A stretch of DNA of 64,000 bases from an uncultured Allobosea sp. (GTDB taxonomy: Bacteria; Pseudomonadota; Alphaproteobacteria; Rhizobiales; Beijerinckiaceae), in contig NZ_CAMFKW010000002.1 of assembly GCF_945957345.1 (NCBI RefSeq), forward strand, positions 1-64,000, in the 5' to 3' direction. Within the stretch, counting starts at the first letter, position 1. Each line of letters opens with the position of its first letter. The notes under the pieces are model-generated. The model saw only the letters and a list, made by a program, of their open reading frames with translations. It ran no database searches and was not told the origin of the DNA. The translations under genes were made by a program, and so were the position numbers. Shown in pieces: positions 27,002-50,792 of the stretch.

Positions 27002-27579
27002 AATCTGTCTGCGTCTTCTGCGGCTCCAATCCCGGCAATGACCCCGTCTATGCGGCGGGCGCGCGCGCCATGGGCGCCGAGATCGCCCGGCGCGGCCTGA
27101 CGCTGGTCTATGGCGGCGGTGCGGTCGGCCTGATGGGCATCGTCGCCAATGCGGCGATGGAGGCAGGCGGCGAGGTCCACGGCGTCATTCCCCAGGCGCT
27201 GAAGGACAAGGAGGTCGGCCATGTCGGGCTGACCCGGCTCGAGGTCGTCGACACCATGCACACGCGCAAGGCGCGCATGGCCGAGCTCTCGGACGGTTTC
27301 ATCGCCATGCCCGGCGGCATCGGCACCTTCGAGGAACTGTTCGAGATTTGGACCTGGGGCCAGCTCGGCATTCACGCCAAGCCGCTCGGCCTGCTCAATG
27401 TCGCGGGCTTCTACGATCCGCTGGCGACCTTCCTCGACCGCACCGTCGAGGCCGGCTTCCTCAAGCAGAACCACCGGGCGATGGCGATGACCGATACGGA
27501 GCCAGCGACGCTGCTCGACCGCATGCAGAACTATGTGCCGGCTGCGACCTACAAGTGGATCGAGAAGGAGCAGGCCTGA
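26998..27579 (+). CDS. LOG-family protein (TIGR00730; cytokinin riboside monophosphate phosphoribohydrolase-like)
   Basis: A 193-residue Rossmann-fold protein with both LOG hallmarks: GGGAVGLMG (about residues 40-48) and PGGIGTFEE (about 103-111), plus an N-terminal FCGSNPG. LOG proteins release the ribose phosphate from nucleoside 5'-monophosphates, including cytokinin precursors. In most bacteria the physiological substrate is uncertain. The ATG overlaps the M20 peptidase stop (ATGA), so the two are translationally coupled. The GTA region starts after it. Confidence 0.94.
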
Positions 27580-27738: not shown

Positions 27739-28140
27739 ATGGCCGAAGAGGAAAACGCAACGCCGCAACCGGCTGCCGAGCCGAAGTCGAAACGGAGGGT
27801 GATCTCGCGCAAGGCGGTGGTGGGCCAGCTCTGGCGTGCCGCCAAGCGCCAGATCGACACGCACGAGGAACATCTCGCCGACCTGCCGAAAGGCGCGACC
27901 GCCAGCGAAGCCGACGCCAAGGCGCTGGCGGTTCTCGCCCGCACCGTGCGTGAGCTGGTCGCTATCGAGGAGCCCCAGACCACGAGGAAGGACAAGCGTT
28001 CGGATGACCCTTCCGCTGCCGACGATCTGCGACATGTCGCACAGCTCCGTCAGGATCTTGCTCGACGTCTTGAAGCCCTTGCCGCTCAGGACGCGGGTGA
28101 GAATTCTCAAGAAGCTGATGCCGACGGCGATGCCGGATGA
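27739..28140 (+). CDS. GTA g1-like protein, probable small terminase
   Basis: First gene of the cluster, 133 residues. It is charged and helical (RKAVVGQLWRAAKRQIDTHE followed by EHLADLP; ALAVLARTVRELVAIEE), with no transmembrane segment. Its position directly ahead of the large terminase matches g1 of RcGTA, reported as the small terminase. ATG 27739 follows GGGAAGGA. Codons end mostly in G or C up to about 28003, after which this frame loses that bias while the overlapping terL frame gains it. The last 45 residues may therefore be a non-functional tail running through the terL start. Confidence 0.7.
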   Translation: MAEEENATPQPAAEPKSKRRVISRKAVVGQLWRAAKRQIDTHEEHLADLPKGATASEADAKALAVLARTVRELVAIEEPQTTRKDKRSDDPSAADDLRHVAQLRQDLARRLEALAAQDAGENSQEADADGDAG

Positions 28141-29380
28141 CGTCGAGCTCATTTGCAGTACCTGGGAGATCTGGGCACGGGCCGATCAACTGCCGCCCGA
28201 ACCACTGAAGCCGATCTGGCTCGTTCTTGGAGGGCGAGGGGCCGGCAAGACCCGAACCGGCGCCGAATGGGTCAAGGGCATGGCTCTGGGCCATCCCCCT
28301 TTCGCGGATGCGCCGACGGAGCGGATCGCCCTCGTTGGCGAAACGCAGGCGCAGGTCCGCGACGTGATGATCGAAGGCGTATCCGGATTGCTCTCGATCC
28401 ATACACGCTGGGAGCGGCCGATATGGCAGCCCTCGCTGCGCCGCCTGCAATGGACGACTGGCGCGATCGCACAGGTCTTCACGGCAGAAGATCCGGAAGC
28501 ATTGCGCGGGCCGCAATTCGGCGCGGCCTGGTCCGACGAACTGGCGAAATGGCCGAACCTCGGGGAGTGCTGGGACATGCTGCAATTCGGACTGCGTCTC
28601 GGCGACAACCCGCGCCAGGTCGTGACGACCACACCGCGCCCGCTGCCGTTGGTGAAGCGCCTGCTGGCCGAGCCGTATGTCGCGGTGAGCCGGGCGCGGA
28701 CGCAGGACAACCGCTACAACCTCGCCGCCGAGTTCGTCCGCATGGTGACGCAGGCTTATGGCGGGACGCGGCTCGGCCGGCAGGAGCTCGACGGCGAGAT
28801 TGTCGAGGAGAGCCCGGACGCGCTCTGGACACGGGCCATGATCGAGGCCGCCCGCGAGCGCGAGACACCCGCGCTGGCACGGATCGCGGTCGCGGTCGAT
28901 CCGCCCGCCACCTCCTCGCAACGGGCCGACCGATGCGGGCTCGTCGTCGCCGGCGTCGACCATGGCGGTATCGGCCATGTGCTGGAGGACGCGACATTGG
29001 CCGGCGCCCGGCCGCAGGAATGGGCGGAGAGGGCGGTCGCGCTCTATCGGCGCCATGAGGCGGATGCGCTGGTCGTCGAGGTCAACCAGGGCGGCGAGAT
29101 GGTCGAAAGCATCATCCGCGAGGTCGATGTCGGCGTGCCCGTGGTCTCCGTGCGGGCGACGCGCGGCAAGTATCTGCGCGCAGAGCCGGTCGCCGCGCTC
29201 TATGCGCAAGGCCGCGTGCGCCATGCCGGGGCCTTTCCCGCGCTTGAGGACGAAATGTGCGCCTTCGGCCCGCGCGGCCTCGAAACTGGCCGTTCGCCGG
29301 ACCGGCTCGACGCACTCGTCTGGGCGCTGACCCATCTGATGCTGGCGCCGAAGGCCCGGCCGCGGGTGCGGGGAATGTAG
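28004..29380 (+). CDS. GTA large terminase / DNA packaging ATPase (g2)
   Basis: The packaging motor, 458 residues. WARADQLPPEP precedes Walker A LGGRGAGKTRTGAEW, then Walker B AWSDELAKW and coupling motif TTTPRP. The RNase-H-like nuclease carries AVDPP, VVEVNQGGEM and RLDALVWA acidic residues. RcGTA-type terminases fill heads with host DNA by a headful mechanism without sequence-specific sites. ATG 28004 follows AGGAAGGA and is where strong GC3 bias begins in this frame; it overlaps g1 by 137 bases. A start at 28130, nearer the motifs, would drop about 42 residues of clearly coding sequence. Confidence 0.93.
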   Translation: MTLPLPTICDMSHSSVRILLDVLKPLPLRTRVRILKKLMPTAMPDDVELICSTWEIWARADQLPPEPLKPIWLVLGGRGAGKTRTGAEWVKGMALGHPPFADAPTERIALVGETQAQVRDVMIEGVSGLLSIHTRWERPIWQPSLRRLQWTTGAIAQVFTAEDPEALRGPQFGAAWSDELAKWPNLGECWDMLQFGLRLGDNPRQVVTTTPRPLPLVKRLLAEPYVAVSRARTQDNRYNLAAEFVRMVTQAYGGTRLGRQELDGEIVEESPDALWTRAMIEAARERETPALARIAVAVDPPATSSQRADRCGLVVAGVDHGGIGHVLEDATLAGARPQEWAERAVALYRRHEADALVVEVNQGGEMVESIIREVDVGVPVVSVRATRGKYLRAEPVAALYAQGRVRHAGAFPALEDEMCAFGPRGLETGRSPDRLDALVWALTHLMLAPKARPRVRGM

Positions 29381-29516
29381 CTCGGCCGTCATTCTCGGGC
29401 GGCGAGAAGCGCCGATTCGGGAATCTCGGGACGAGAAGACACTGATTTCCGAGATGCCCGCGGCTCAAGCCCGAGCAAAACGGCTCGTCGTTTCACGCTC
29501 CAACAGCGAGACATCC

Positions 29517-30698
29517 ATGTTCGATTTTCTTCGCAGCCTGCGCGGCCGAGCCGCGCCGGGCCAGAAGCGCTCGCGCGTCGGGCCGCTGATCGCGCTGCAC
29601 GAGGCGGGGCGCGCCGTCTGGACGCCCCGCGATTATGTCGCGCTCTCGCGGGAGGGCTATGAGCGCAATCCGGTCGTGCATCGCTGCATCCGCCTGATCG
29701 CGGAGGCGGCGGCGCAGACTCCGCTCATCGCCAAGGTCGGCGCGCGCGAGATACCGGAGCATCCGGCGCTCGCCCTGATCGAGAGGCCCAATCCGCGCCA
29801 GGGCGGCATCGCCTTCCGCGAGATGCTCGTCGGCCACCTCATGGTCGCCGGCAACGCCTATGTCGAGGCAGTGAGCGTCGGACGCGAGCCGCGCGAACTC
29901 TATGCGCTACGGCCCGACCGGATGCGTGTGGTGCCCGGCCGCGACGGCTGGCCGGAGGCCTATGACTACACGGTCGGCGGCGACACGGTTCGCTTCCGGC
30001 AGGACGAGGGTGGCCTGCCGCCGATCCTGCATCTGACGCTGTTCCACCCCGTCGACGACCATTACGGGCTGTCGCCGATCGAGGCGGCGGCGGTCTCGCT
30101 CGACATCCACAATGCCGCCGGCAGCTGGCACAAGGCCCTGCTCGACAACGCCGCGCGACCCTCCGGCGCCCTGGTCTATGACGGACCGGAAGGCGCGACC
30201 CTGACCGAGGCGCAGTTCGAGCGGCTGAAGCAGGAGCTGGAGGACTCCTTCCAGGGGGCCCGCAATGCCGGCCGCCCGCTGCTGCTCGAAGGCGGACTGG
30301 ACTGGAAGCCGCTCTCGCTGACACCGGCCGAGCTGGACTTCGTCGCGGCCAAGGGCGTCGCGGCCCGCGAGATCGCGCTCGCCTTCGGCGTGCCGCCGCT
30401 GGTGCTCGGCCTGCCGGGGGACAATACCCACGCCAATTTCGCCGAGGCCAATCGCGCGCTCTGGCGCCAGACGGTCATTCCGCTGGTGCGCCGCACCGCG
30501 CAGTCCCTGGCGCAATGGCTTGGGCCCGCCTTTGGCGACGAGTTGGTGCTCGAGCCCGATCTCGACGCCATCGAGGCGCTGGCCGAGGAGCGGGAATCGC
30601 TCTGGCGCCGGCTCGGTGCCGCGACGTTCCTAGACGAGGACGAGAAGCGCGAGGCCGTCGGCTATGGCCGGCGCGCCTTCGGGAAGGAGGCCTCATGA
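29517..30698 (+). CDS. GTA portal protein (g3, HK97-type)
   Basis: A 393-residue portal that forms the ring at the capsid vertex for DNA entry and tail attachment. Recognised by RNPVVHRCIRLIAEAAAQTP, GNAYVEAV, LYALRPDRM and VPPLVLGLPGDNTHANFAEA, which recur in HK97-family portals. Start ATG 29517 (MFDFLRSLRG). The 136 bases between terminase stop and portal start contain no supported gene. Its TGA overlaps the ATG of the next small gene. Confidence 0.94.
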   Translation: MFDFLRSLRGRAAPGQKRSRVGPLIALHEAGRAVWTPRDYVALSREGYERNPVVHRCIRLIAEAAAQTPLIAKVGAREIPEHPALALIERPNPRQGGIAFREMLVGHLMVAGNAYVEAVSVGREPRELYALRPDRMRVVPGRDGWPEAYDYTVGGDTVRFRQDEGGLPPILHLTLFHPVDDHYGLSPIEAAAVSLDIHNAAGSWHKALLDNAARPSGALVYDGPEGATLTEAQFERLKQELEDSFQGARNAGRPLLLEGGLDWKPLSLTPAELDFVAAKGVAAREIALAFGVPPLVLGLPGDNTHANFAEANRALWRQTVIPLVRRTAQSLAQWLGPAFGDELVLEPDLDAIEALAEERESLWRRLGAATFLDEDEKREAVGYGRRAFGKEAS

Positions 30699-30895
30699 AC
30701 ATGCTCGAACAGGTCGTCGCGGCCTTCGTCGGCCGTGCCGATGTCGGCCATCTCGGCCTTTTGCTCTGGGCGGCGAGCGCCTCGGGGCTGGCCTGGCTCG
30801 TCCTGCGCGAGCTGACCGCCGCCAACCGACGTTTCGACGATTTCGTCCGCGAGCTCAACCGCTTCAACGCACGCCACGAAGGGGACCCCTCATGA
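30695..30895 (+). CDS. GTA g3.5-like small membrane protein
   Basis: A 66-residue protein with one hydrophobic segment (VGHLGLLLWAASASGLAWLVL, about residues 17-37) followed by a charged helix (RELTAANRRFDDFVRELNRF). Position between portal and prohead protease corresponds to RcGTA g3.5, whose function I do not know. The start overlaps the portal stop (ATGA), and its own stop overlaps the next start the same way. Confidence 0.75.
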   Translation: MNMLEQVVAAFVGRADVGHLGLLLWAASASGLAWLVLRELTAANRRFDDFVRELNRFNARHEGDPS

Positions 30896-31071
30896 AAGGC
30901 AGAAACGGTGCGGCCAAGCCGCCGCCCAAGGCTCCCGCGCCAGCCCGTGCGGGGAGGGCGCCGCGCGGCGGCGCGCCCGTCGAGACCTTCAGCCGCTTTG
31001 TCCGTCAGCTCGCCAAGCTTGAGAGCGAGCGGACGAAGGGCGGCCGGGACGGCGCGGAGGGCGATCGATGA
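30892..31071 (+). CDS. Small basic GTA-cluster protein of unknown function
   Basis: A 59-residue Pro/Ala/Arg-rich N-terminus (KPPPKAPAPARAGRAPRGG) precedes a short helical end (ETFSRFVRQLAKLESERTKG). It is held in frame by ATGA overlaps at both ends, with g3.5 upstream and the prohead protease downstream, which supports translation. I do not recognise a counterpart in the R. capsulatus cluster. It could be a scaffold-like or capsid-associated peptide, but this is speculative. Confidence 0.6.
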   Translation: MKGRNGAAKPPPKAPAPARAGRAPRGGAPVETFSRFVRQLAKLESERTKGGRDGAEGDR

Positions 31072-31577
31072 CGCGGTTGAGCCCGGCCCGCGCCTCGTTC
31101 GAAGCCAAGTTGCTGCCGGTCCAGCCGTCCCGGATCGGGCTCGACGGCGTCTTCGAGGGCTATGCCAGCCTCTTTCGCATTCCCGATCTCGGCAAGGATA
31201 TCGTTGAGCCCGGCGCCTTCCGCGAGAGCCTGCAGCGGCGCGGGCCGGGCGGCGTGAAGATGCTCTGGCAGCATGATCCGGCCGAGCCGATCGGCCGCTG
31301 GTCGAGCCTGATCGAGGACAGCCGCGGCCTGTTCGTGCGCGGCCGGCTGTCTCTGGCCGTCGCCCGTGCCCGCGAAATCCATGCGCTGATGCGGGATGGC
31401 GCGATCGACGGGCTGTCGATCGGCTTTCGCCACGAGAAGGCCCGCACCGAACCGCGAACCGGCCTGCGCCGGCTCGAACGCATCGATCTTTGGGAGGTCT
31501 CGGTCGTGACCTTCCCGATGCTGCCCCAGGCCCGGATCGCCGCCGTCAAGGCGACCTGGCCCTCCGCTTTCATCTGA
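31068..31577 (+). CDS. GTA prohead protease (g4, HK97 type)
   Basis: A 169-residue HK97-family prohead serine protease that trims the capsid protein during maturation. GVFEGYASLFRIPDLGKDIV and FRESL match the family. The catalytic region is VKMLWQHDPAEPIG (His) and the Ser is in GLSIGFRH; ERIDLWEVSVVTFPM closes the domain. Start overlaps the preceding stop. It lies 22 bases upstream of the capsid gene, which has the ribosome site CAGGAGAG. Confidence 0.93.
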   Translation: MTRLSPARASFEAKLLPVQPSRIGLDGVFEGYASLFRIPDLGKDIVEPGAFRESLQRRGPGGVKMLWQHDPAEPIGRWSSLIEDSRGLFVRGRLSLAVARAREIHALMRDGAIDGLSIGFRHEKARTEPRTGLRRLERIDLWEVSVVTFPMLPQARIAAVKATWPSAFI

Positions 31578-31599: not shown

Positions 31600-32844
31600 A
31601 TGAACCACCTCAATACCGCGCCTGAAACCAAGGCTGCCGGCGCTGATCTCGCGCTGGCCTTCGAGGATCTGCGCTACACGTTGGAAAACTACCGCACCAC
31701 CAACGAGGAGCGCCTTGCCGGGCTGGAGGCGCGCCAGGGCGCCGACCCGCTGACCGAGGAGAAGCTCGTCCGCATGGATGCGGCGCTCGACGACACCATG
31801 CGCCGGATCGACCGGCTGACGCTGGAGCGCGCCCGCCCGGCGCTGGGGCATGACGGCCCGCGCGATCCGCTGACGGCCGAGCACAAGGCGGCCTTCGGAG
31901 CCTATGTCCGCACCGGTGAAGCCGGCGGCCTGAAGCGACTGGAGGCCAAGGCGCTCTCCGCCGGATCCGGCCCGGATGGCGGCTATCTCGCGCCGGCGAC
32001 CGTCGAGGGCGAGATCCTGCGTCGCCTGGCCAATGTCTCGCCGATCCGCTCGCTGGCCACGGTTCGCACGATCTCGTCGGGCACCTACAAGAAGGCGTTC
32101 TCGACCACCGGTCCGGCCTCTGGCTGGGTGGCCGAGACGGCGGCCCGGCCGCAAGGGTCTTCGCCGACTCTGGCCGAGCTCTCCTTCCCGGCCATGGAGC
32201 TCTACGCCATGCCGGCGGCGACCCAGACCCTGCTCGACGATGCCATCGTCGATATCGATCAGTGGATCGCCGAGGAGGTCGAGAGCGTCTTCGCCGAGCA
32301 GGAGGGCGCGGCCTTCGTCAATGGCGATGGCGTCGACAAGCCCAAAGGCTTCCTGGCCTATCCCACGGTCGCGGATGCCAGCTGGAGCTGGGGCAATATC
32401 GGCGTGCTCAACACCGGCGTCGCCGGGGCCTTTCCCGCTTCGAATCCCTCCGATGTGCTGGTCGATCTCGTCTATGCGCTGAAAGCAGGCTTCCGCCAGA
32501 ACGCTTCCTTCGTGATGAACCGGAAGACGCAAGGAGCGATCCGCAAGTTCAAGGACGCCACCGGCAACTATCTCTGGCAGCCCCCGGCCTCGGCCGGTGC
32601 TCCGGCGACGCTTCTCGGCTTCCCGCTGGTCGAAGCGGAGGACATGCCGAACATCGCCAACAATGCCGTCTCGATCGCCTTCGGCGATTTCCGGCGCGGC
32701 TATCTCGTCGTCGACCGGGCGGGCGTCCGCATCTTGCGCGATCCCTATTCGGCCAAGCCCTATGTGCTGTTCTACACGACCAAGCGCGTCGGCGGCGGTG
32801 TCCAGGATTTTGCCGCGATCAAGGGGCTGAAATTCGCCGTTTGA
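31600..32844 (+). CDS. GTA major capsid protein (g5, HK97 fold)
   Basis: The 414-residue major head protein. Residues 1-110 form a charged, helical delta-domain-like region (LAFEDLRYTLENYRTTNEER). The mature domain begins around SAGSGPDGGYLAPATVEGEI and continues with RSLATVRTI, GWVAETAARPQ, EQEGAAFVNGDG, SFVMNRKTQGAIRKFKDATG and GDFRRGYLVVDR, all typical of HK97 capsids. The g4 protease presumably removes the N-terminal region. The gene ends 6 bases before the stop codon of an opposing serine protease gene, so the usual continuation into g6 is interrupted here. Confidence 0.96.
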   Translation: MNHLNTAPETKAAGADLALAFEDLRYTLENYRTTNEERLAGLEARQGADPLTEEKLVRMDAALDDTMRRIDRLTLERARPALGHDGPRDPLTAEHKAAFGAYVRTGEAGGLKRLEAKALSAGSGPDGGYLAPATVEGEILRRLANVSPIRSLATVRTISSGTYKKAFSTTGPASGWVAETAARPQGSSPTLAELSFPAMELYAMPAATQTLLDDAIVDIDQWIAEEVESVFAEQEGAAFVNGDGVDKPKGFLAYPTVADASWSWGNIGVLNTGVAGAFPASNPSDVLVDLVYALKAGFRQNASFVMNRKTQGAIRKFKDATGNYLWQPPASAGAPATLLGFPLVEAEDMPNIANNAVSIAFGDFRRGYLVVDRAGVRILRDPYSAKPYVLFYTTKRVGGGVQDFAAIKGLKFAV

Positions 32845-32850
32845 TTTCAC

Positions 32851-33696
32851 TCAGCGCGAGAACCACCAGCTGAAGGCCGCGCGCGGCTCGGCCGCCTGCT
32901 CCGGCGGCGCTTCGCTGCCGATAGCCCGCAGCCGCGCGCTGCCTTCGGTGATCCAGCTACGATATTCGCTGACCGGCGTGATCGCGGTGAAGCCGCCGCA
33001 GATCAGGCGAGCCTGCGTCTTCAGCGGGCCGCTCGACCAACTCACGATGCCGACGAGATCACGCGAGCGGGTGCCGCTGCCGCGCAGCACCGGTCCGCCG
33101 GAATCGCCGCGGCAGGCGCCGGCGCCGGGCGTCTCGCCGCGGTTCTCAGCATCGACGGCGACCTTGACCGTGTTCTGCGTGGTGTAGTTGCCGGCGTTGA
33201 CGAGTTGCGTCTCGCGCAGGCGTCGCGCTGTCTTCTTGTTGTTCTCCGCCGACAGCCCGTAGCCGGCCATGGTGATGGTCTCGCCCTGCCAGAGGCCACT
33301 GCCGAGCGTCAAAGGCTCGATGTCGCCAGGCAACGGTTGGGCCAGGCGCAGCAGCGCAAGGTCGGTGCCGGGTTGGGTGCGCGGCGTCGTGCCGGGCACG
33401 AAGCTCGGGTGTGGCAGCACCGCGACCACCATCTGGCGGCGTGCTCGGAAGCGGGTGTCGAGGCTGACGACGCTGATCGAGCCGCCGCCCATCAGGCAAT
33501 GCGCCGCGGTGAGCACGATCTCGGGCGCGATCACCGCGCCCGAGCAGAGCTCGCCGCGGCTGGTTTCGACCCGGACGGTCGAAGCGCGAGCGCCGAGGGC
33601 ATCACGGGAATCGACACCACCAACCACGGCCCACGCCGGACAAGTGGCGCTGATGGCCAGGAAACACGCAAGGGCGAGCGACGAGCGAGAGATCAT
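32851..33696 (-). CDS. Secreted trypsin-like serine protease 1, inside the GTA cluster
   Basis: A 281-residue S1-family protease. Signal peptide MISRSSLALACFLAISA ends near AWA, and the mature N-terminus would be VVGGVDSRD, the activating N-terminus of chymotrypsin-fold enzymes. The triad is complete: LTAAHC (His), GTDLALLRL (Asp), CRGDSGGP (Ser), with paired cysteines around the His loop. A C-terminal extension of about 40 residues (EAPPEQAAEPRAAFSWWFSR) follows the domain. Small residues line the specificity region (IVSWSSG), and there is no clear trypsin Asp189, so specificity is open. ATG 33708 is an alternative start. It lies antisense between capsid g5 and adaptor g6 and 60 bases downstream of a second such gene. 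Confidence 0.9.
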   Translation of the reverse strand: MISRSSLALACFLAISATCPAWAVVGGVDSRDALGARASTVRVETSRGELCSGAVIAPEIVLTAAHCLMGGGSISVVSLDTRFRARRQMVVAVLPHPSFVPGTTPRTQPGTDLALLRLAQPLPGDIEPLTLGSGLWQGETITMAGYGLSAENNKKTARRLRETQLVNAGNYTTQNTVKVAVDAENRGETPGAGACRGDSGGPVLRGSGTRSRDLVGIVSWSSGPLKTQARLICGGFTAITPVSEYRSWITEGSARLRAIGSEAPPEQAAEPRAAFSWWFSR

Positions 33697-33756
33697 GAAA
33701 CGAACCAATGGACCGGCCGATCAATCTAGGCTGTGGCGCGCAACAGTCCAGCCCCG

Positions 33757-34533
33757 TCAGCGGCGGCGAGTCCAGCGGGCGCTTTCGCCCCATTGCGACA
33801 GGGTGGAATCGATCCAGCCGCGTTGCGGAGCGACCAGGACACCCTGGCTGAGCAGGCCGCATTGGCGCCCGGAGGGGCCTGTCGACCAGCTCGTGACCGC
33901 GACGATGCCGTCATCGCCGAAGATCGGACCGCCGGAATCGCCCTGGCAGGCACCTGCGCCCGGTCGCTTGCCGCCACCGGCTCCGTCGGCGGCCCATAGC
34001 AGGATGCGTCCGGGGCCGTAAGGCTCGACGGCCGTCAGCGCTGCCGAGCGATAGGTGCCGGTGCTGCGCGCCTCGCCTTCGCGGGAGACGCCGTAGCCGG
34101 CAAGCGTGACGCTGCTGCCGGCGCGCGGCAACGAGCCGTCGACAAGATCGGCGGCGCTGAACCGGCCGGGCAGAGGCTCGGGCAAGCGGATCAGGGCGAG
34201 GTCGATCGTGCGGCGGCGACTGCGGATCGCGCCAGCGTCGAATTCCGGATGCATAGCGACCGTTGATGGCACGACGAGGACAGGCTCGCCGCCGTCGCGC
34301 CAGTGAACACGCAACTCAGCGCCACCGGCCGCGCAATGGGCGGCGGTCAGGATGGCGCGCGCCGACAGGACGATCCCGGTACAGACCCCGCCGCGGGCAT
34401 TGAGCACCATCAGGGTCGAGCCGGCCGACGGCCCGCCTTCCTGCCCGGCCACGACGGCCCGCGCCGGGAGGCTCCCGAAGCTTGCGGCGGCGCAGGCGAG
34501 GCCGATGGCGGCGATCCGGTTGGCGATATGCAT
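33757..34533 (-). CDS. Secreted trypsin-like serine protease 2, inside the GTA cluster
   Basis: A 258-residue S1-family protease related to its downstream neighbour. The signal peptide (RIAAIGLACAAASFGSLPARA) would leave VVAGQEGGPS as the N-terminus. The triad is in LTAAHC, TIDLALIRL and CQGDSGGP, with GYGVSREGEA and AVTSWSTGPSGRQCG in the binding region. ATG 34533 follows GGAGAGGAG. It is divergent from GTA g6 (113 bases between), so both promoters must lie there or g6-g15 must be read through from upstream. With protease 1 it forms a likely two-gene operon. Confidence 0.9.
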   Translation of the reverse strand: MHIANRIAAIGLACAAASFGSLPARAVVAGQEGGPSAGSTLMVLNARGGVCTGIVLSARAILTAAHCAAGGAELRVHWRDGGEPVLVVPSTVAMHPEFDAGAIRSRRRTIDLALIRLPEPLPGRFSAADLVDGSLPRAGSSVTLAGYGVSREGEARSTGTYRSAALTAVEPYGPGRILLWAADGAGGGKRPGAGACQGDSGGPIFGDDGIVAVTSWSTGPSGRQCGLLSQGVLVAPQRGWIDSTLSQWGESARWTRRR

Positions 34534-34646
34534 CGGGTGCTCCTCTCCGAGAGAGCGCTGATAGCGCGCCCGGCGCCGCAGATGAACCCTCTCGACTGCG
34601 GCTTCGCGGTCGAACCCACGCAATCCAACGAATGAAGGGGGCGCTC

Positions 34647-35216
34647 ATGACGCCGCTTGCCCTGGGCCCGCCGGCGATGGAGCCGGTGACACTCGCCGAG
34701 ACCCGCCAGTTCCTGCGCCTTGACCAGACCGATGAGGACGCCTTGCTGGCCACCCTGATCACCGCCGCCCGGCTGATGATCGAGGCGGCGTCGGGGCGCT
34801 GCCTGATCGAACAGTCCTGGCGCATCGTGCTCGACCGCTGGCCGTCGAGTGGCGAAATCCGCCTGCCGTTCTCGCCGCTGCTGCGGATCGACGCGGCGCG
34901 TGTTTATGACGTGCTGGGTTCCGCTCAGACCGTCGCGGCCGCCTCTTTGACACCGGACAAGACCGCCGATCCGCCGGTCATCCGCCTGACGGGCGAGGTG
35001 CCCGAGACCGGCCGTGCCCATGGCGCGATCGAGATCGATGTCGCCACCGGCTTCGGAGCAACGGCTGCGGCCGTGCCCGCGCCGCTGCGGCAGGCCGTGC
35101 TGCGCCTCGCCGCCCGCTGGTTCGAGCAGCGCGGCGATGTCGCCGGGCGCGATGCACAGGCCTTGCCGGCCGCGATCGCCGCGCTGGTCGCCCCGTTTCG
35201 TCGCGGGAGGCTCTGA
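34647..35216 (+). CDS. GTA head-tail connector/adaptor (g6)
   Basis: A 189-residue HK97 gp6 / phiE125 gp8-like connector that stacks under the portal. Signatures are PVTLAETRQFLRLDQTDEDA, LLATLITAARLMIEAASGRC, SWRIVLDRWP, LPFSPLLRI and RQAVLRLAARWFEQRGD. ATG 34647 follows AAGGGGG, preferred to ATG 34632. First gene of the second half of the GTA cluster, resuming sense transcription after the antisense proteases. Confidence 0.93.
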   Translation: MTPLALGPPAMEPVTLAETRQFLRLDQTDEDALLATLITAARLMIEAASGRCLIEQSWRIVLDRWPSSGEIRLPFSPLLRIDAARVYDVLGSAQTVAAASLTPDKTADPPVIRLTGEVPETGRAHGAIEIDVATGFGATAAAVPAPLRQAVLRLAARWFEQRGDVAGRDAQALPAAIAALVAPFRRGRL

Positions 35217-35552
35217 ATGGCACAGGAACCTGCCGCCATCGGCCGGCTCAGGCGCCGGCTCGTGCTGGAGGCGCCGGTTTCGTCGCCCGATGGACTCGGC
35301 GGCGCGACGCAGGCCTTCGAGGCCGTAGCTGCGCTCTGGGCTCAGGTCGAATGGATCTCCGGCACCGAGGCCTGGCGCCAGGGCCGGCCGGAGCAGTCCC
35401 GCAACTATCGCATCACCATGCGCTGGCGCGATGACGCCGATGCCGGCCGGCGGCTGCGCGACGGCGATCGTCTGTTCGACATCCGCTCTGCCGCCGACCC
35501 CGATGGCGCGCGTAGGCGCCTGATCTGCCTCGTCGAGGAGGTGACGCCATGA
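35217..35552 (+). CDS. GTA head closure protein (g7)
   Basis: A 111-residue head-closure/stopper protein of the SPP1 gp16 / HK97 gp10-like class. IGRLRRRLVLEAPVSSPDGL, AALWAQVEWISGTEAWRQG and YRITMRWRDD match the family. The ATG begins immediately after the g6 stop, and the gene ends overlapping g8. Confidence 0.92.
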   Translation: MAQEPAAIGRLRRRLVLEAPVSSPDGLGGATQAFEAVAALWAQVEWISGTEAWRQGRPEQSRNYRITMRWRDDADAGRRLRDGDRLFDIRSAADPDGARRRLICLVEEVTP

Positions 35553-35959
35553 GCGATGCCGTCCTGGCCCTTCGCGCTGCTGTGCAGGCACGCCTCATCG
35601 CGGATTCGGCTCTCACTGCGCTGATCGGCCCCGACCGCGTCTTCGACGAGGCCCCGCGCGCTGCCCGCGGGCTCTATGTCGTCCATGGCGAGGTCGAAGC
35701 CCGCGACTGGTCGACCGGCAGCGACCGTGGCTGCGAGCAGGAACTCGCGCTCGTCGTCTGGGCCGCGCAGAGCGGCTCTTCGCGCCAGGCGCTGGAGGCG
35801 GCTAGCCTGATCGTCGCGGCGCTCGATCAGGTCGATCTCGCCCTGGACGGGCACGCGCTCGTCAATCTGCGCTGGCTGTCGAGCCGGCTCGCCCGCGAGA
35901 CGCGCAACGGATTGCCTCAGGTGACGATCCGCTTCCGCTCCGTCACCGAAACGCTCTAG
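35549..35959 (+). CDS. GTA tail completion/terminator protein (g8, DUF3168)
   Basis: A 136-residue DUF3168 protein expected to join head connector and tail tube. LRAAVQARLIADSALTALIG, RVFDEAPR, QELALVVWA and VNLRWLSSRLARETRNGLPQ match this family. The start overlaps the g7 stop by four bases. Confidence 0.93.
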   Translation: MSDAVLALRAAVQARLIADSALTALIGPDRVFDEAPRAARGLYVVHGEVEARDWSTGSDRGCEQELALVVWAAQSGSSRQALEAASLIVAALDQVDLALDGHALVNLRWLSSRLARETRNGLPQVTIRFRSVTETL

Positions 35960-35979
35960 CTGAACAAAGGAGAAGCCGC

Positions 35980-36390
35980 ATGGCGGCACAGAAGGGCAAG
36001 GACCTGCTGCTCAAGGCAGGGGATGGTGCCGGCGGCTTCGTCACGGTCGCCGGCCTGAGGGCGCGGCAGATCGCGTTCAACGCCGAGACCGTGGACGTGA
36101 CGCATTCGGAATCGGCAGGGCGTTGGCGCGAATTGCTGGCGGGTGCCGGCGTGCGCCGCGCCAGCATCAGCGGTGCCGGCATCTTCAAGGACGAGGCCTC
36201 GGACGCGCTCGTCCGCCAAAGCTTCTTCGACGGGGTGATCCGCGACTGGCAGATCGTCGTCCCGGATTTCGGCACGATCGCAGGGCCGTTCCAGCTCACG
36301 GGCCTGGAATATCGCGGCGACCATGCCGGCGAGGTCACCTTCGACCTGTCGCTGGAATCCGCCGGGCTGCTGGCCTTCGCGGCGCTTTGA
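35980..36390 (+). CDS. GTA major tail tube protein (g9, TP901-1 type)
   Basis: A 136-residue tail tube protein with AAQKGKDLLLKAGDGAGGFV, AGLRARQIAFNAETVDVTH, GVRRASISGAGIFKDEASD, GTIAGPFQLTGLEYRGDH and a final FDLSLESAG. These features are typical of the GTA/TP901-1 major tail protein. It follows AAGGAGAAG at a good distance. A short, single-domain tube protein fits the RcGTA particle. Confidence 0.94.
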   Translation: MAAQKGKDLLLKAGDGAGGFVTVAGLRARQIAFNAETVDVTHSESAGRWRELLAGAGVRRASISGAGIFKDEASDALVRQSFFDGVIRDWQIVVPDFGTIAGPFQLTGLEYRGDHAGEVTFDLSLESAGLLAFAAL

Positions 36391-36400
36391 GGAGGCGGCC

Positions 36401-36745
36401 ATGGTCAATCGTCATCGCGGCGAGACCGCGCTCATGGTCTCCGGCGAAACCCTGCCGATGCGTCTCACCCTCGGCGCGCTCGCCGAGCTGGAGCATGCCT
36501 TCGCTGTCGACAGCCTGCCGGCGCTGGGCGAGCGCTTCGTCGAGGGCAGGCTGTCCGCCCGCGACATCATCCGCATCATCGCCGCAGGACTGCGCGGAGC
36601 GGGCCGGGCGATCCGCGACGAGGATGTCGCGGAACTCTCCTTCGACGGCGGCTTGAGCGGCGCGATCAAGGCGGCGATCACGCTGCTTGAGGCGACCTTC
36701 GGTGAGGGTGGGGACGCAGCCCGCCCTCCGCAACCGCCGGCGTAG
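36401..36745 (+). CDS. GTA gp10 family protein, tail assembly chaperone-like (g10)
   Basis: A 114-residue GTA_gp10-family protein. NRHRGETALMVSGETLPMRL, TLGALAELEHAF and RDIIRIIAAGLRGAG are the family signature. In phages the corresponding position carries the tail assembly chaperone that coats the tape measure. ATG 36401 follows GGAGG. Its stop at 36743-36745 overlaps the open frame of g10.1, discussed there. Confidence 0.93.
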   Translation: MVNRHRGETALMVSGETLPMRLTLGALAELEHAFAVDSLPALGERFVEGRLSARDIIRIIAAGLRGAGRAIRDEDVAELSFDGGLSGAIKAAITLLEATFGEGGDAARPPQPPA

Positions 36746-36774
36746 CTGCGCCGGCGGGTTTTCCCTGGGACGAG

Positions 36775-36942
36775 GTGATGGCCTTCGGGCTCGGGCGGCT
36801 GGCCTGGCCGCCCGATCGTTTTTGGGCAGCGACGCCGCGCGAGATCGCGGCGGCGCTGCGGGCCCATCAGGACCGGTCCCGTGGTTCAGCCCCGGAGCGT
36901 CCGGCGCTGGCGGCGCTGATGGACGCCTTTCCAGACGCCTGA
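36775..36942 (+). CDS. GTA g10.1 / rcc01693-type tail assembly chaperone, start uncertain
   Basis: From GTG 36775 this encodes 55 residues: LGRLAWPPDRFWAATPREIA, then a linker and ALAALMDAFPDA. This is the rcc01693 phage tail assembly chaperone pattern. The recognisable family N-terminus (GFPWDEVMAFG) begins upstream, at about 36757. No ATG, GTG or TTG lies in frame between the preceding in-frame stop (36703-36705) and 36775. Either translation starts at GTG 36775 or ATG 36778 and loses the FPW segment, or the segment is translated by -1 frameshifting from g10. The encoded frame is intact. Confidence 0.78.
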   Translation: MMAFGLGRLAWPPDRFWAATPREIAAALRAHQDRSRGSAPERPALAALMDAFPDA

Positions 36943-36978
36943 GGCGGCACTTCCAACCAATCGATCGAGGTGATGGTC

Positions 36979-37578
36979 ATGACGGACAATGACGGTATCG
37001 AGTCGGGAGGACGCCTCTCCGACCTGAGGACGATGGACCGGTTGACGCAGTCGCTGAGCCGGTCGTCGGAGAGCTTCGGCAAGTCGATCGTCAGCGCCTT
37101 CTCGCGCGGCGTCGTCGAGGGCAAGCGCTTCGAGGATGTTCTGCGCAGCGTCGGTCGCTCGATGACCGACAGCCTGCTCAAGACGGCGCTGAAGCCGCTG
37201 CAGACCGGCTTGTCGAGCTTGCTCAGCACCGGCGTCAAGAGCCTCAGCGGCCTGTTCGGCGGCATCGGCCTGGGCGGCTCTGGAGGTGGAGGCATTTCGG
37301 TCGCGCCCTTCGCCGAGGGCGGCATCGTCTCCTCGCCCTCCTATTTTCCGACCGGACGCGGACTCGGCCTCATGGGCGAACGCGGCGCGGAGGCGATCAT
37401 GCCACTCGCTCGCGGGCCGGACGGGCGCCTCGGCGTGCGGGCCGGCGGAGGACAGGGGCGGCCGCTCAACGTCGTCGTGCAGGTCTCGACCCCCGATGCC
37501 GACAGCTTCCGCCGCTCGGAGGCCCAGGTCTCCGCGGCAATCGCCCGCGCCGTCGCGCGTGGCCGGCGGGCTCTCTGA
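36979..37578 (+). CDS. GTA short tape-measure-like tail protein (g11)
   Basis: A 199-residue tail protein in the position of RcGTA g11 (tape measure). The N-terminal half is amphipathic helix (LTQSLSRSSESFGKSIVSAF, VLRSVGRSMTDSLLKTAL). Next comes a hydrophobic, glycine-rich segment (GLFGGIGLGGSGGGG). The C-terminal motif PFAEGGIVSSPSYFPT, then GLMGERGAEAIMPL, is the conserved end of GTA and lambda-type tape measures. Its short length fits a short GTA tail. ATG 36979 is preferred; GTG 36970 and ATG 36973 are in frame. Confidence 0.9.
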   Translation: MTDNDGIESGGRLSDLRTMDRLTQSLSRSSESFGKSIVSAFSRGVVEGKRFEDVLRSVGRSMTDSLLKTALKPLQTGLSSLLSTGVKSLSGLFGGIGLGGSGGGGISVAPFAEGGIVSSPSYFPTGRGLGLMGERGAEAIMPLARGPDGRLGVRAGGGQGRPLNVVVQVSTPDADSFRRSEAQVSAAIARAVARGRRAL

Positions 37579-37590
37579 GGGAGGGGAAGC

Positions 37591-38229
37591 ATGCCGGATT
37601 TCCATGAGGTCCGCTTTCCGCTCGATGTCGCACGTGGTGCGAGGGGCGGGCCGGAGCGTCAGACCCAGATCGTGACGCTCGCTTCCGGGCGCGAGGTCCG
37701 CAACAGCCGCTGGGCGCATTCGCGCCGCCGCTACGATGCCGGGCTCGGCATCCGCAATCTTGACGCTCTGGCGGCGGTCGTGAGCTTCTTCGAGGAGCGT
37801 CGCGGTCGCCTCCACGGTTTTCGCTGGCGCGACCAGCTCGACTGGAAGAGCTGCCGGCCCTCGCAGGAGCCGGCTCCAACCGACCAGGTGATCGGGGTCG
37901 GCGACGGTGTCGCGGCGAGCTTTCAGCTCTGCAAGACCTACGGAACAGGCGCGTCCGCCTATAGTCGCGAGATCAGCAAGCCTTGCGATGGCACGGTCAG
38001 GATCGCCATGGACGGGGTCGAACTGGCCGGCACCGCCTTCTCCTGCAACCTCTCGACCGGGCAGGTCACTTTCGCAGTCGGATCGATCCCACCGGCTGCT
38101 GCCGTCCTGACCGCCGGCTTCGCCTTCGACGTGCCCGTCCGTTTCGACACAGACGCGATCGAGGTCGATCTCTCCGCCTTCGCGGCCGGCGAGATTCCGC
38201 GCGTTCCCGTGGTCGAGATCATCCCGTGA
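37591..38229 (+). CDS. GTA distal tail protein (g12, DUF2460/TIGR02217)
   Basis: A 212-residue DUF2460 protein forming the distal tail ring in GTA particles. FHEVRFPLDVARGARGGPER, ASGREVRNSRWAHSRRRYD, FFEERRGRLHGFRWRDQLDW and VPVRFDTDAIEVDLSAFAAG are distinctive. It starts 12 bases after g11. Confidence 0.96.
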   Translation: MPDFHEVRFPLDVARGARGGPERQTQIVTLASGREVRNSRWAHSRRRYDAGLGIRNLDALAAVVSFFEERRGRLHGFRWRDQLDWKSCRPSQEPAPTDQVIGVGDGVAASFQLCKTYGTGASAYSREISKPCDGTVRIAMDGVELAGTAFSCNLSTGQVTFAVGSIPPAAAVLTAGFAFDVPVRFDTDAIEVDLSAFAAGEIPRVPVVEIIP

Positions 38230-38238
38230 GGCTCGCCC

Positions 38239-39120
38239 ATGCGTGACATTCCCTCCGGTCTTGCCGCCCATATCGAGACGGCTGCGACGACCCTCTGCCA
38301 TTGCTGGAGCTTGACGCGCCGGGACGGACTCGTGCTCGGCTTCACCGATCACGATCGCAAGCTGTCCTTCGACAGCATCGATTTCGCCGCGACGACCGGC
38401 CTCGAAGCGGCGGAAAGCGCGGCGGAACTCGGCTTCGCTATCGGCGGAGGCGAGGTCGCCGGCGCCTTCGCCGCCCTCGGCCTGAACGAGGCCGATCTCG
38501 CGCGGGGGCTCTATGACGATGCGCGTGTTCGCGTCTGGCTCGTCAATTGGGCGGATCCTTCTCAGCGGGTTCTGCAGGAGGAGGGCTTCGTCGGCGAGAT
38601 CAAGCGCGGGGAAGCAAGCTTCACCGCCGAAATCCGCAGCTTCGCCAAAGCCTTCGACGAGGAGCGCGGACGGCTCTACATGCGCTCCTGCTCGGCCGAT
38701 CTCGGCGACGCGCGCTGCGGTGTCGCCCTGGTCGCGGCGGAAGCCGAGGTTGCCGAGAGCGATGGTCGCCTCTCGCTGTCGGCGGAAGGCGTGGACTCCT
38801 ATGCTGATGGCCACTTCACCGGCGGCCGGCTGATCTTCACCAGCGGCGCGAATGCCGGCTTCGCCACCGAGGTGAAGCGGCATGGCCGCGAGGGGGCGCA
38901 GGCGCTGTTCCAGCTCTGGCAGGCGCCGGCTGCGGCGATCGTGGCTGGCGACGGCTTCCGGGTCACGCCGGGTTGCGACAAGAGCTTTGCGACCTGCCGC
39001 GCCAAATTCGCCAATGGTGTGAATTTCCGCGGCTTCCCGCACATGCCGACGACCGATTTCATCATCGGCGGTGTCCGGCCCGGCGACGGGGTGCTCGATG
39101 GCGGGAGCCTGTTCCGATGA
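38239..39120 (+). CDS. GTA tail hub protein (g13, DUF2163)
   Basis: A 293-residue DUF2163 protein of the GTA tail hub. IPSGLAAHIETAATTLCHCW, LGFTDHDRKLSFDSIDFAAT, DDARVRVWLVNWADPSQRVL, YMRSCSADLGDARCGV, and FATCRAKFANGVNFRGFPHM are hallmarks. Several cysteines are conserved and bind a metal cluster in related proteins. The gene ends overlapping g14. Confidence 0.96.
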   Translation: MRDIPSGLAAHIETAATTLCHCWSLTRRDGLVLGFTDHDRKLSFDSIDFAATTGLEAAESAAELGFAIGGGEVAGAFAALGLNEADLARGLYDDARVRVWLVNWADPSQRVLQEEGFVGEIKRGEASFTAEIRSFAKAFDEERGRLYMRSCSADLGDARCGVALVAAEAEVAESDGRLSLSAEGVDSYADGHFTGGRLIFTSGANAGFATEVKRHGREGAQALFQLWQAPAAAIVAGDGFRVTPGCDKSFATCRAKFANGVNFRGFPHMPTTDFIIGGVRPGDGVLDGGSLFR

Positions 39121-39548
39121 GGCGCGACGAGATCGTCGATGCCGCACGGCTCTGGCTGGGCACGCCCTATCATCATCAGGCTTCGCTGCGCGGTGTCGGC
39201 TGCGATTGCCTCGGGCTGGTGCGCGGCGTCTGGCGCGATCTTTGCGGCGACGAGCCCGAAGCGCCGCCGCCTTATTCGCCGAGCTGGGCCGAAAGCCTGC
39301 GGCAGGAGACGCTGGCCTTGGCAGCGCAACGGCATCTGCAGCCGTTGGCGACGGCAGAAGCGCGAGCGGGCGACGTGCTGCTCTTCCGCTGGCGCGAGCA
39401 TCTGCCGGCCAAGCACTGCGCGATCCTCGCAAGCCCTGATCGCATCATCCATGCCCATGACGGCGCCGCCGTCGCCGAGGTCGCCTTTACCCCTTGGTGG
39501 CGGCGCCATCTCAGCCATGCCTTTTCCTTCCCCGGAGTGACCGACTGA
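39117..39548 (+). CDS. GTA NlpC/P60 cell-wall peptidase (g14)
   Basis: A 143-residue NlpC/P60 peptidase of the GTA type, presumably helping the particle breach the recipient peptidoglycan. The catalytic Cys is in GVGCDCLGLVRGVW and the His in LPAKHCAIL, with RIIHAHDG following. Start ATG 39117 overlaps the g13 stop; the stop overlaps the g15 start (TGATG). Confidence 0.95.
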   Translation: MRRDEIVDAARLWLGTPYHHQASLRGVGCDCLGLVRGVWRDLCGDEPEAPPPYSPSWAESLRQETLALAAQRHLQPLATAEARAGDVLLFRWREHLPAKHCAILASPDRIIHAHDGAAVAEVAFTPWWRRHLSHAFSFPGVTD

Positions 39549-42500
39549 TGGCGACGCTTCTTCTCCAGGTTGCCGGCGCCGCGCTCGGATCGGCCCTGGG
39601 CGGGCCGGTCGGCGGCGCGATCGGCCAGGCGTTGGGCGGTCTCGCCGGCGCTACCATCGATCAGGCTTGGATGGGCGGCGCCGGTGGCGGGAACAAGGTC
39701 GTCGACGGCCCGCGCCTCAAGGAGATCAACGGCCTCGCCGCGACGGAGGGCGCTGCGATCCCGCGCCTTTACGGCCGCGCACGGCTCGGCGGCCAATTGA
39801 TCTGGGCGACGCGCTTCGAGGAGGAGGTCTCTGTCTCGATCACGCGTACCAAGAGCGGCGGCAAGGGCGGGCGCGCGAAGAAGACCTACGAGACGACCTA
39901 CAGCTACCATGCCAATCTCGCGATCGGCCTCTGCGAAGGGCCGATTGCCTTCATCAGGCGCATCTGGGTCGATGGGCGCGAACTCGACGTCCAGACCGTG
40001 CAGATGCGCGTCCATCACGGCTACGAGACGCAGCAGCCCGATCCGTTGATCGCGGCGAAGGAGGCGGGCGAGGCTCCGGCCTATCGCGGGCTCGCCTATG
40101 TCGTGTTCGAGCGCTTTCCGCTGGCCGATTACGGCAATCGCGTGCCGCAATTCGATTTCGAGGTCGTGCGCGCCGTCGAGGGGCTGGGTGGCATGATCCG
40201 CGCGGTCGCGTTGACGCCGGGCGCCGGCGAGTTCGTCTACGACATTCGCCCGGTCAGCCACGAGCCCGAGGCCGGCGTCACAGAAAGCCTGACGCGCCAC
40301 CAGCTCTATGGCGGCAGCGATGCCGATACCGCGCTCGGCCATCTCGTGGCGCTTTGTCCCAACCTGCGCCGCGTCTCGCTGGTCGTGTCCTGGTTCGGCG
40401 ACGACCTGCGTGCCGGAGCCTGCACCGTGGCTCCCCGCATCGAGATCCCGCACAAGCCGACGGTCGGAGCGGAATGGTCGGTCGCCGGGCTGTCGCGCTC
40501 TTCGGCCCGCGTCGTCAGCCAGGTCGATGGCCGGCCTGCTTTCGGCGGCACGCCCTCAGACGAGAGCGTCGTCGCGCTGATCCGGCGCCTGCGCTTCGAT
40601 TACGGGCTGGAGGTCGTGCTCTATCCCTTCCTGATGATGGATATCCCGGCCGGAAATGCGCTGCCGGATCCCTATTCGGATGCGGCCAGCCAGCCGCGCT
40701 ATCCCTGGCGCGGGCGGGTCACCTGCGATCCCGCGCCCGGCGAGCCGGGAAGCCCCGAAGGCAGCGCCGCCCTCGCTACGCAGATCGCCTCCTTCGTCGG
40801 CACGGTCGTTCCCGCTGATATGACGATGGCCGGCGCGAGCGTAAGCTGCGCCAAGCCGGACGAATGGTCCTATCGGCGCCTCGTCATGCATTGCGCCGCG
40901 CTGGCCCAGGCTGCCGGGGGCGTGGAGGGCTTCGTCATCGGTTCCGAGATGGTCGGGTTGACGCATCTGCGCGGCGTGGGGGGCTATCCGATGGTCGATC
41001 AGCTCGCGACCATTGCGCAGGACGTGAAGACGATACTGCCGGGGTCGGTACTGACCTACGCCGCAGACTGGACCGAGTATGGCGCGGATGTCCGTGACGA
41101 TGGGGAGACCATCGATTTCCCGCTCGATCAGCTCTGGGCCTCGCCCGCCATCGGTGCGATTGGCATCGATTTTTATCCGCCATTGTCGGACTGGCGTGAT
41201 TCCGGCGATCATGCCGATGCCGCGGTCGCGCGCGGTCCGGCCGATCTCGCCTATCTGCGCCAGCGCCTGACCGCTGGCGAAGCCTATGACTGGTACTACG
41301 CCGACGAGGCCGACAGAGCCGCGCAGGCGCGCCTGCCGATCACGGACGGCGCCCATGGCAAGCCCTGGATCTACCGGCCGAAGGACCTTTGGGGCTGGTG
41401 GAGTCAGGCCCATATCCGCCGTGTTGGCGGCGTCGAGACCAGCGCGACCCCGTTCGTCCCCGGCGCGAAGCCGATCTGGCTGACCGAGATCGGCGTGCCC
41501 GCCGCCGACAAGGGCGCCAATGCGCCCAACATGTTCCCCGATCCGAAATCGGACGAGGGCGGCTTTCCCCCGTTTTCGAGTGGAGCGCGCGACGATCTCG
41601 TTCAGGCGCGGGCGCTGGAGGCGATCATCTCCGGCTTCGATCCCGCACGCGCGGGGTTCGATGTCGCTCGAAATCCGGTTCATCCAGTCAGCGGCATCCG
41701 CATGGTCGATCCCAACAGGATCTTCGTCTGGAACTGGGATACGCGGCCTTTTCCCGCCTTTCCCGACCTTTCCGGCATCTGGGCCGACGGGGCGAATTTC
41801 GAAACCGGTCACTGGCTGAACGGGCGCCTCGAAGGCACGCCTGTCGATCGGTTGGTGACGAAGCTCCTGGCTGATTTCGGGCTGCCGCCGGCCGATCGGA
41901 CGGTGGTCGATGGCTTCGTCGACGGCTATGTGCTGGACCGTCCGATGTCGGCCCGGCAGGCATTGGAGCCTCTCGCCCAGAGCTTCGGCTTCGACGCGGT
42001 CATGAGCGCCGGTGCCCTGCGCTTCGAGGGCAGGGGCGGCAAGGTCTCGCGCCTGCTCGGCCCGGACGATCTGGTTCCGGATCGCGACGGCGAGCCCTTC
42101 ACGCTCAGGCGCAGCCAGGAGACGGAACTGCCGCTCGAATTGCGCCTCGGCTTCAGCGACAGCGAGGCCGATTACCGCAACGCCGCCGCGCGCTCGCGCC
42201 GGCTGGCCGGTGCGGCCCGGCGCGAGGTCGCGGTCGAAACCGCGATCGTGACGCGCTCCGCCGAAGGGCGACGCCTGGCCGATCAGCGCCTTCAGGAGGC
42301 CTGGGCCGGGCGTGAGACGCTGGAATGTGAGCTCTCGCCGCGCTGCATCGCGATCGAGCCCGGCGATGTCCTGTCCGTCCCGATCGAGGCCGGCAACCGC
42401 CTGTTCCGCGTCACCCGCATTGCCGACGGCCCGACGCGGCGGATCAGCGCGCGCGCCGTCGAGCCGGCGATCTATGTCTCGGCCGGAGCGACCGGCGGCC

Positions 42501-43855: not shown

Positions 43856-43893
43856 CGGCCGTCGCGGCTACCCCCAACTGGAGCGACCCTACC

Positions 43894-44562: not shown

Positions 44563-44571
44563 TCGCGGGCG

Positions 44572-45951: not shown

Positions 45952-46018
45952 ACGAATTCTGTGCCGCGTGACCCTTTGTCACCATGAACCTGAGCGGATG
46001 ATTGGCTAAGAACGCCGC

Positions 46019-47634: not shown

Positions 47635-47641
47635 GCCTGAT

Positions 47642-49618: not shown

Positions 49619-49622
49619 GCCG

Positions 49623-50613: not shown

Positions 50614-50792
50614 CGTCCCCAGCTCTGACGTAGGGGCACAGACAGGCCGTTCGTCGTCAAGGCGTGCAGGATTGGCCTTAGGTCGAACCTTACGAAACCG
50701 TCATCTTCAGGCCAAAGCCGCGTAAGGCGGCAAAGGTCATGGTCCTCCTCACGAGCAGGGCAAAGCACCCTGTCGCTCCACGAGGTTCCGCC

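Follow-up and report, generated by a model that had tools for sequence, protein, structure and literature searches.

Antisense serine protease genes between the capsid and connector genes of an RcGTA-type cluster and their retention after GTA loss

The window, by which we mean the whole 64-kb stretch of DNA analyzed here, corresponds to the initial 64 kb of contig C2, part of a draft genome of 5.2 Mb. It carries an RcGTA-type cluster on the + strand that extends from g2 (27836) to g15 (43468) and is known here from its genes alone. The terminase, portal, g3.5 and prohead protease genes (g2, g3, g3.5 and g4; 27836..31577) are followed by g5 encoding an HK97-type major capsid protein (31600..32844), g6 encoding a head-tail connector (34647..35216) and g7-g15 (35217..43468), all on the + strand. 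Of these genes, g3.5, g11 and g14, for which there was no Pfam match, were named by position. The terminase, portal, prohead protease, capsid, connector and tail genes, including one for a GTA_TIM protein, are conserved, and the cluster exhibits the g2-g15 order and gene families of the RcGTA-type head-tail cluster, from which it differs by what appears to be an antisense cargo operon splitting g5 from g6. Nine GTA genes located on both sides of this block are under purifying selection (dN/dS 0.029-0.112 in comparison with Bosea sp. 47.2.35, L237), and the GTA of the window therefore does not look dead. The cluster is flanked on the left by an M20 peptidase gene and a LOG-family gene (25583..27579, + strand), which form the same left flank in two GTA-less Bosea genomes (L242 and L246), and on the right by a 107-aa ORF, an OmpR-type response regulator and a histidine kinase (43532..45951, + strand), which may be FeuN/FeuP/FeuQ-like and which are the neighbors of most proteases found without a GTA. 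Within the right flank (43532-51971) the regulator-kinase pair is followed by cytochrome c maturation genes and a Trypsin-family match at 51150-51638, presumably DegP-like judging from its position.

The block between g5 and g6 consists of two genes on the - strand encoding S1 family proteases, PB (P0002; 34533-33757, 258 aa; Pfam Trypsin E 8e-21), which comes first and is the more widespread of the pair, and PA (P0001; 33696-32851, 281 aa; Pfam Trypsin E 4.7e-29). The best named database matches to the window protease belong to Bosea. The PA stop codon is situated 6 bp from the g5 stop codon, tail to tail, while PB and g6 are divergent with 113 bp between their starts. PB lies 60 bp upstream of PA, and with this spacing the two genes probably form one operon. 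The GC content of the block (0.68-0.73) resembles that of the surrounding cluster. A search for direct and inverted repeats revealed no convincing flanking repeat around the block: the longest direct repeat (69 nt, 72%) was found between the two paralogous protease genes themselves, and the short imperfect inverted matches included one 16-nt pair (88%) with arms in g5 and g6 that may be due to chance. The two protease genes fill the block, in which neither an integrase nor a transposase was seen. The preliminary description of this DNA, which had reported two intact secreted proteases antisense between g5 and g6 with no mobility gene or obvious flanking repeats, was thus confirmed in these respects.

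The triad His57, Asp102 and Ser195 as well as Asp194 were invariant in all 149 full-length proteases that had not been picked by motif and in all 259 proteases overall (distinct sequences of more than 180 aa, excluding broken copies such as L164). The cysteines of the pairs C42-C58 and C191-C220 were kept in the 259 proteases save for one substitution and two gaps. Pfam Trypsin covers the domain, profile matching to the PDB returned S1 chains with elastase 1 chains as the best matches, and the AlphaFold2 model of PB (pLDDT 87.8) is mostly beta. In trypsins, which cleave after Arg or Lys, residue 189 at the base of the S1 pocket is Asp. This Asp189 was present in none of the 259 sequences, which contain Gly (229), Ser (17), Ala (9) or another residue (4) at this position, while positions 216 and 226 were often Ser, Ala, Val or Ile. 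By the S1 pocket rules, PA and PB would have an elastase- or chymotrypsin-like pocket and not that of a trypsin, and the earlier label "trypsin-like" consequently holds for the fold but not for the specificity, with Gly instead of Asp as residue 189.

Export is predicted from the hydrophobic N-termini (read by eye) and an AxA site, in which Ala occupies position -3 in 140 and position -1 in 146 of the 149 proteases. Residue 16, which directly follows the predicted signal-peptidase site, was V, I or L in 145 of the 149; in PA of the window the signal peptide is followed by VVGG. Since the AxA site abuts residue 16, signal peptidase would leave exactly the S1-activating N-terminus, and if so, there would be no propeptide and the enzyme would be inactive in the cytoplasm. 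Following export via Sec, the signal peptide would be cut at the conserved A-x-A directly before the [VI]-[VI]-G-G N-terminus, and activation by this cleavage, through the Asp194 salt bridge, would be confined to the space beyond the cytoplasm. The mature enzymes may prefer small or hydrophobic P1 residues and are expected to act on envelope or extracellular proteins. GTA capsids assemble in the cytoplasm, and an enzyme that would be inactive there argues against capsid processing. This role had been suggested for the module, but the signal peptide and the conserved cysteine pairs make it improbable. PA and PB share the triad, both cysteine pairs, GDSGG and an IVGG-like N-terminus with the pancreatic elastase/chymotrypsin S1 peptidases. 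They differ from these in apparently having no propeptide, with the signal peptide abutting residue 16, and in a residue 189 that is mostly Gly and otherwise Ser or Ala.

The distribution of the module was analyzed in a family sample of 119 genomes, which, like the order and class samples below, was drawn evenly and not at random. A search with the capsid protein resulted in matches in 85 of these genomes at E 1e-3, and a search with PA in 94, and 100 fetched loci of 99 genomes were read gene by gene in addition to the window. In 71 of the 119 genomes including the window, the g5-g6 junction holds one or two antisense proteases next to GTA genes, and the arrangement is hence not peculiar to this strain. 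Four of the 71 exhibit only g6 beside the protease: the contig ends within about 1.5 kb in L142 and L147, the cluster of L163 is split and its g5 is found at another place on the same contig, and in L140 g5 is missing from the 6.6 kb retrieved on the relevant side. Six genomes (genus codes g17 and g42) have adjacent g5 and g6 and gave no PA match. A further 23 contain a protease at a site that lacks an intact GTA (a g6 relic remains in one of them, and one, G038, is doubtful), and the remaining 19 have neither GTA nor protease, a category that includes distant capsid matches (G003, G089 and G100; 175-186 bits) assumed to be prophages. The module located next to at least three GTA genes covers 28 genus codes of the family sample. 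Among all loci read there were 140 distinct junctions with both g5 and g6, 115 of which hold a protease, as one copy in 56 and as two copies in 59, and the orientation was antisense in 115 of 115.

In the order sample (199 genomes, 192 of them outside the family; up to 14 candidates were scored per genome, so that weak relatives may be missed) strong protease matches of more than 130 bits were obtained in 17 genomes of three families, f20, f36 and f50. The module follows g5 in five of six f20 genomes (one contig ends before g6), and in the sixth a lone protease gene is found without any GTA gene in its vicinity. The module is located between g5 and g6 in one of six f36 genomes, while the other five of these and all five f50 genomes hold it without nearby GTA genes. 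Weaker matches of up to 113 bits were observed in other families such as f35. The named matches place Ancylobacter, Xanthobacter and Bradyrhizobium in this wider group, the pairing of names with family codes being our inference; the named set was retrieved with a GDSGG-containing pattern and is thus biased for GDSGG, and it overlaps in genomes with the unnamed set. A capsid match was obtained in 139 of the 199 genomes. From the best-scoring of these, 20 junctions of other families were hand-picked, one or two per family, and in all 19 that could be read (18 families; L234 ended before g6) no protease was present at the junction and g6 comes after g5. No protease above 82 bits was detected outside the family in the class sample (240 genomes, 237 outside the family; up to 11 candidates per genome). 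The comparison of the junction in relatives, which had been proposed as a check, therefore gave a two-sided answer: the module is common inside the family, whereas the junctions read in other families have g6 following g5 without it.

A tree of the PB-type proteases (116 rows, with G038 still labeled as a protease without GTA and two f20 rows on very long branches) follows genera, and GTA-embedded copies and those without GTA are mixed in it. Mapping the presence of the GTA onto this tree resulted in at least 16 state changes, seven of which are forced by well supported branches. In the tree of the capsid protein g5 (96 rows, 95 counted) presence of the module needs four changes. The six family genomes that bear a GTA but lack the module constitute one supported clade nested among bearers, a position most simply explained by a single secondary loss. 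Selection was estimated from greedily chosen, non-overlapping pairs with dS of 0.1-0.6, some of which join different genera. The median dN/dS of PB was 0.27 in 27 pairs with GTA (maximum 0.84) and 0.21 in 10 pairs without GTA (maximum 0.60). For PA it was higher without GTA (0.23, 6 pairs) than with GTA (0.11, 18 pairs). The highest values (0.8 with GTA and 1.5 without) are not trustworthy, the latter stemming from one pair of PA without GTA from two families. In nearly all pairs dN/dS stayed below 1 after GTA loss, and the proteases are under purifying selection both with and without a GTA. A passive, recent or neutral insertion, as had been considered for the block, is favored by nothing but the lack of a mobility gene or known function. 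The family-wide distribution over 28 genus codes, the uniform antisense orientation, a tree that follows genera and dN/dS values mostly far below 1 exclude it as a neutral recent event and leave a passive origin with practically no credibility. It had also been considered that the block shuts off g6-g15, which is unlikely in view of the nine constrained GTA genes and of the 71 family genomes that combine the module with GTA genes.

Of the 42 family genomes scored as having no intact GTA, 23 keep a protease, usually beside the genes that flank the GTA elsewhere; we refer to these copies as orphans. In 55 of 58 measurable GTA-bearing genomes (69 were examined, seven with the genes on different contigs and four with no regulator match) the response regulator gene, which follows g15 in the window, shares the strand of g5 and lies 4.7-19.5 kb downstream of it. 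In 15 of the 22 orphans measured (G038 was left out) regulator and protease are encoded on opposite strands at a distance of 0.4-1.9 kb, and five further orphans in which the regulator is distant or on another contig adjoin a CxxC-domain gene, the other GTA flank. Among the genes searched for, the CxxC-domain gene was the closest one upstream of g2 in 12 of the 20 GTA-bearing genomes with a fetched upstream flank, and it flanks many orphans on the side opposite the regulator. Of the remaining loci, L151 has neither of the two GTA flanks and L150 is located at the edge of a contig. The shared flanking genes place the orphans at the site of the GTA itself. In Bosea psychrotolerans (L242) and Bosea sp. 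OK403 (L246) the order is M20 - LOG - PA< PB< - 107-aa ORF - regulator - kinase, with both proteases and the same flanks as in the window and no match to GTA genes between the flanks. The GTA-less state was also found in Methylobacterium platani, M. variabile, M. nonmethylotrophicum and Methylobacterium sp. WSM2598, and on the 1.57-Mb plasmid pMaq22A_1p of Methylobacterium aquaticum (L368) the protease pair and its regulator-kinase neighbors were GTA-less in the 16.7 kb fetched. A functional role for the neighboring two-component genes was considered, as the orphans are transcribed divergently from them, and set aside, since GTA-bearing genomes separate them from the protease by 5-20 kb; the adjacency of orphan protease and regulator is treated as a scar.

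A search for GTA relics in 17 GTA-less loci gave any relic in two of them. In L260 the C-terminal 85 aa of g5 persist beside PA, along with a weak g6 start beside PB; in L158 the N-terminal 52 aa of g6 are left beside PB. L292 contains a partial GTA cluster, and all three loci look like products of GTA decay. When 33 orphan genomes were searched for g12, strong matches were obtained in three, G038, G086 and G108, and those of G086 and G108, which lie elsewhere in the genome, likely represent prophages. In G038 a GTA-type g5 end and g12 share one contig and the orphan-like protease sits beside a CxxC gene on another (C176 and C476; L165); this genome may have its GTA on another contig and was not counted as a clean orphan. 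The orphan protease of G040 (L164) is frameshifted, which indicates that the protease gene can decay once the GTA is gone. The orphan arrangement at one site in two families, including five f50 genomes, could also suggest that the protease was at this chromosomal site first and that GTA genes later came to both sides of it. Under such a scenario the GTA halves would have had to land on both sides repeatedly, and the relics of L260 and L158, the partial cluster of L292 and the nesting of orphans among GTA-embedded copies on the protease tree all speak for the reverse order, which makes a protease-first history very improbable.

Repeated retention of the module after GTA loss implies that the proteases probably serve the cell itself. 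We therefore favor, with a probability of about 0.62, the interpretation of the block as an old moron-like cargo operon in the GTA head-tail cluster of one Hyphomicrobiales group, from which one or two exported elastase/chymotrypsin-like proteases would be made for the cell itself. The proposal that the block is an accessory module is upheld in this broad sense, while its link to GTA function is weakened by a module that repeatedly outlives the GTA and by the GTA clade that does without it. Alternatively, the proteases could be a functional part of the GTA program in genomes with a GTA, acting in the envelope to affect release, re-adsorption (via receptor removal from producers) or recipient competence, and could later have been kept for a second role after GTA loss. 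Consistent with this are the position kept in 71 family genomes, the association of protease and GTA within the family, the antisense lytic transglycosylase gene found beside the protease in L316 and L305, and the requirement of GTA-mediated lysis in Caulobacter for LypA, a protein with a trypsin-like peptidase domain in a different architecture (PMC13236601, accessible portion). The association itself (protease kept in 71 of 77 GTA-bearing versus 23 of 42 other family genomes; Fisher p 3.5e-6, with phylogeny not accounted for) can be explained by physical linkage, with deletions removing both, and could also reflect shared function. Retention of the proteases after repeated GTA loss with no relaxed selection on PB, the GTA-bearing clade without the module and its absence from the 19 junctions read in 18 other families argue against such a role, which we regard as rather unlikely.

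Transcription of PB-PA is expected to start from a promoter in the gap between PB and g6. A candidate (34560..34590, - strand) contains ATAGCGC at 34561 and AACC at 34585 in + strand letters, 24 bp from ATAGCGC to AACC, which reads GGTT-N17-GCGCTAT in the sense of PB. The pair was present in nine of ten aligned loci, with unchanged spacing in eight, among them both GTA-less Bosea; farther out the sequences diverge. We consider this layout as a lead to a promoter that may have outlived GTA deletion. The Bosea alignment alone was used here, since g6 coding sequence dominated the output of a search for dyads in 158 upstream stretches, and a consensus scan found no match to the sigma-70 promoter or terminator consensus. 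In Caulobacter, anti-terminated polymerase reads the 14-kb GTA cluster through a terminator (PMC11150451, accessible portion), and if Bosea behaves similarly, sense transcription from an active GTA may read through the protease block and counteract expression of the proteases. Convergent transcription may then render GTA and protease production partly exclusive in each cell. A further possibility is that the block acts mainly in cis, with antisense transcription or the break of the operon regulating g6-g15 relative to g2-g5. Such an effect would fit the antisense orientation of all 115 protease-bearing junctions and the involvement of anti-termination within the 14-kb Caulobacter cluster (PMC11150451, accessible portion), yet it needs no catalytic conservation, whereas the triad is invariant, and the protease genes outlive the GTA that they would regulate. 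We consider a mainly cis-acting block improbable.

Phage morons, or lysogenic conversion genes, provide the closest concept for the favored cargo interpretation. Morons are extra genes with a promoter and terminator of their own and a base composition unlike that of the phage genome, and they benefit the host independently of the phage. Like these, PA and PB are non-structural genes situated between phage structural genes and apparently serve the host. In contrast, they reside in a domesticated GTA, their tree follows genera, no terminator was found and their base composition does not deviate from that of the cluster. The likeness to LypABC and the CARD-NLR systems is confined to a trypsin-like serine peptidase linked to a GTA; LypA is a CARD-peptidase-ATPase with partners (PMC13236601, accessible portion), while PA and PB, of 281 and 258 aa, are single-domain proteins comprising the peptidase domain only and are predicted to be exported. 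A classification as defense proteases was rejected, as PADLOC gave only weak matches to LmuA (28.1 and 15.3 bits). A trypsin-like serine protease is named among the genes of the "cluster N" alphaproteobacterial phages in the accessible portion of PMC10783043, a similar enzyme in phages of the same class but not located in a GTA. A phage origin was likewise discarded after P0002 found no match in 50,697 phage records. Of 31 IMG/VR loci, 16 (L337-L351 and L366) have GTA genes beside the protease, and the close matches are GTA clusters. The remaining 15 matched only distantly (48-77 bits), and the stretch fetched contained no GTA gene above 30 bits. The 16 loci are filed as viral contigs, which means that GTAs are present in viral collections. 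A protease module inside a GTA is apparently undescribed: no description was found among the titles and abstract openings covered, which stem mainly from open literature. The module is unmentioned in the accessible portions of PMC11409702, PMC9638019, PMC9836097 and PMC10783043, and a term search of PMC7947584 gave no match.

GTAs are usually viewed as stripped-down particle factories, the upkeep of which is explained by gene transfer alone. The results presented here describe a whole GTA group carrying a conserved non-structural operon that seemingly has its own selective value. The GTA-less state with the cargo retained arose repeatedly in nature, even within one genus, and provides ready comparisons for GTA persistence. 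Furthermore, statistics on the presence or absence of GTAs can be driven by a linked gene.

The g5-g6 junction also accommodates other genes. An antisense ORF family is located between g5 and the proteases in six loci (L271, L278, L281, L283, L284 and L286), five of which belong to Methylobacterium, and is ferritin/Dps-like by Pfam in L278. Antisense SLT transglycosylase genes with a SPOR domain lie beside the protease in Xanthobacter agilis (L316:10644-11774) and in a Rhizobiales MAG (L305:10689-11681). L307 has an antisense flavin reductase-like gene and L082 a PemK-like gene on the sense strand. In L225, one of the 19 readable junctions of other families, g5 and g6 are separated by about 1.2 kb of other sequence with a sense-strand 177-aa ORF without Pfam match (L225:2629-3159), which indicates that this junction takes other genes too. 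We interpret the junction as a cargo site; in this group the protease is the best conserved of its occupants and probably also the first to have settled there. A more tentative extension would regard the g5/g6 boundary of Hyphomicrobiales GTAs in general as a domesticated-prophage cargo site, occupied first by the protease operon and later by ferritin/Dps-like, lytic transglycosylase, flavin reductase and PemK-like genes. Selection on the cargo might then shape retention and loss of the GTA locus, as cargo outlives a decaying GTA and linkage may slow its loss; we lean somewhat against this broader version. Between g5 and the antisense proteases, L268 (12041-13147) and L272 (8360-9631) contain a sense-strand ORF in which an SNNHVLA motif occurs; by eye, this motif is reminiscent of another serine protease type, and the ORF of L272 has no Pfam match.
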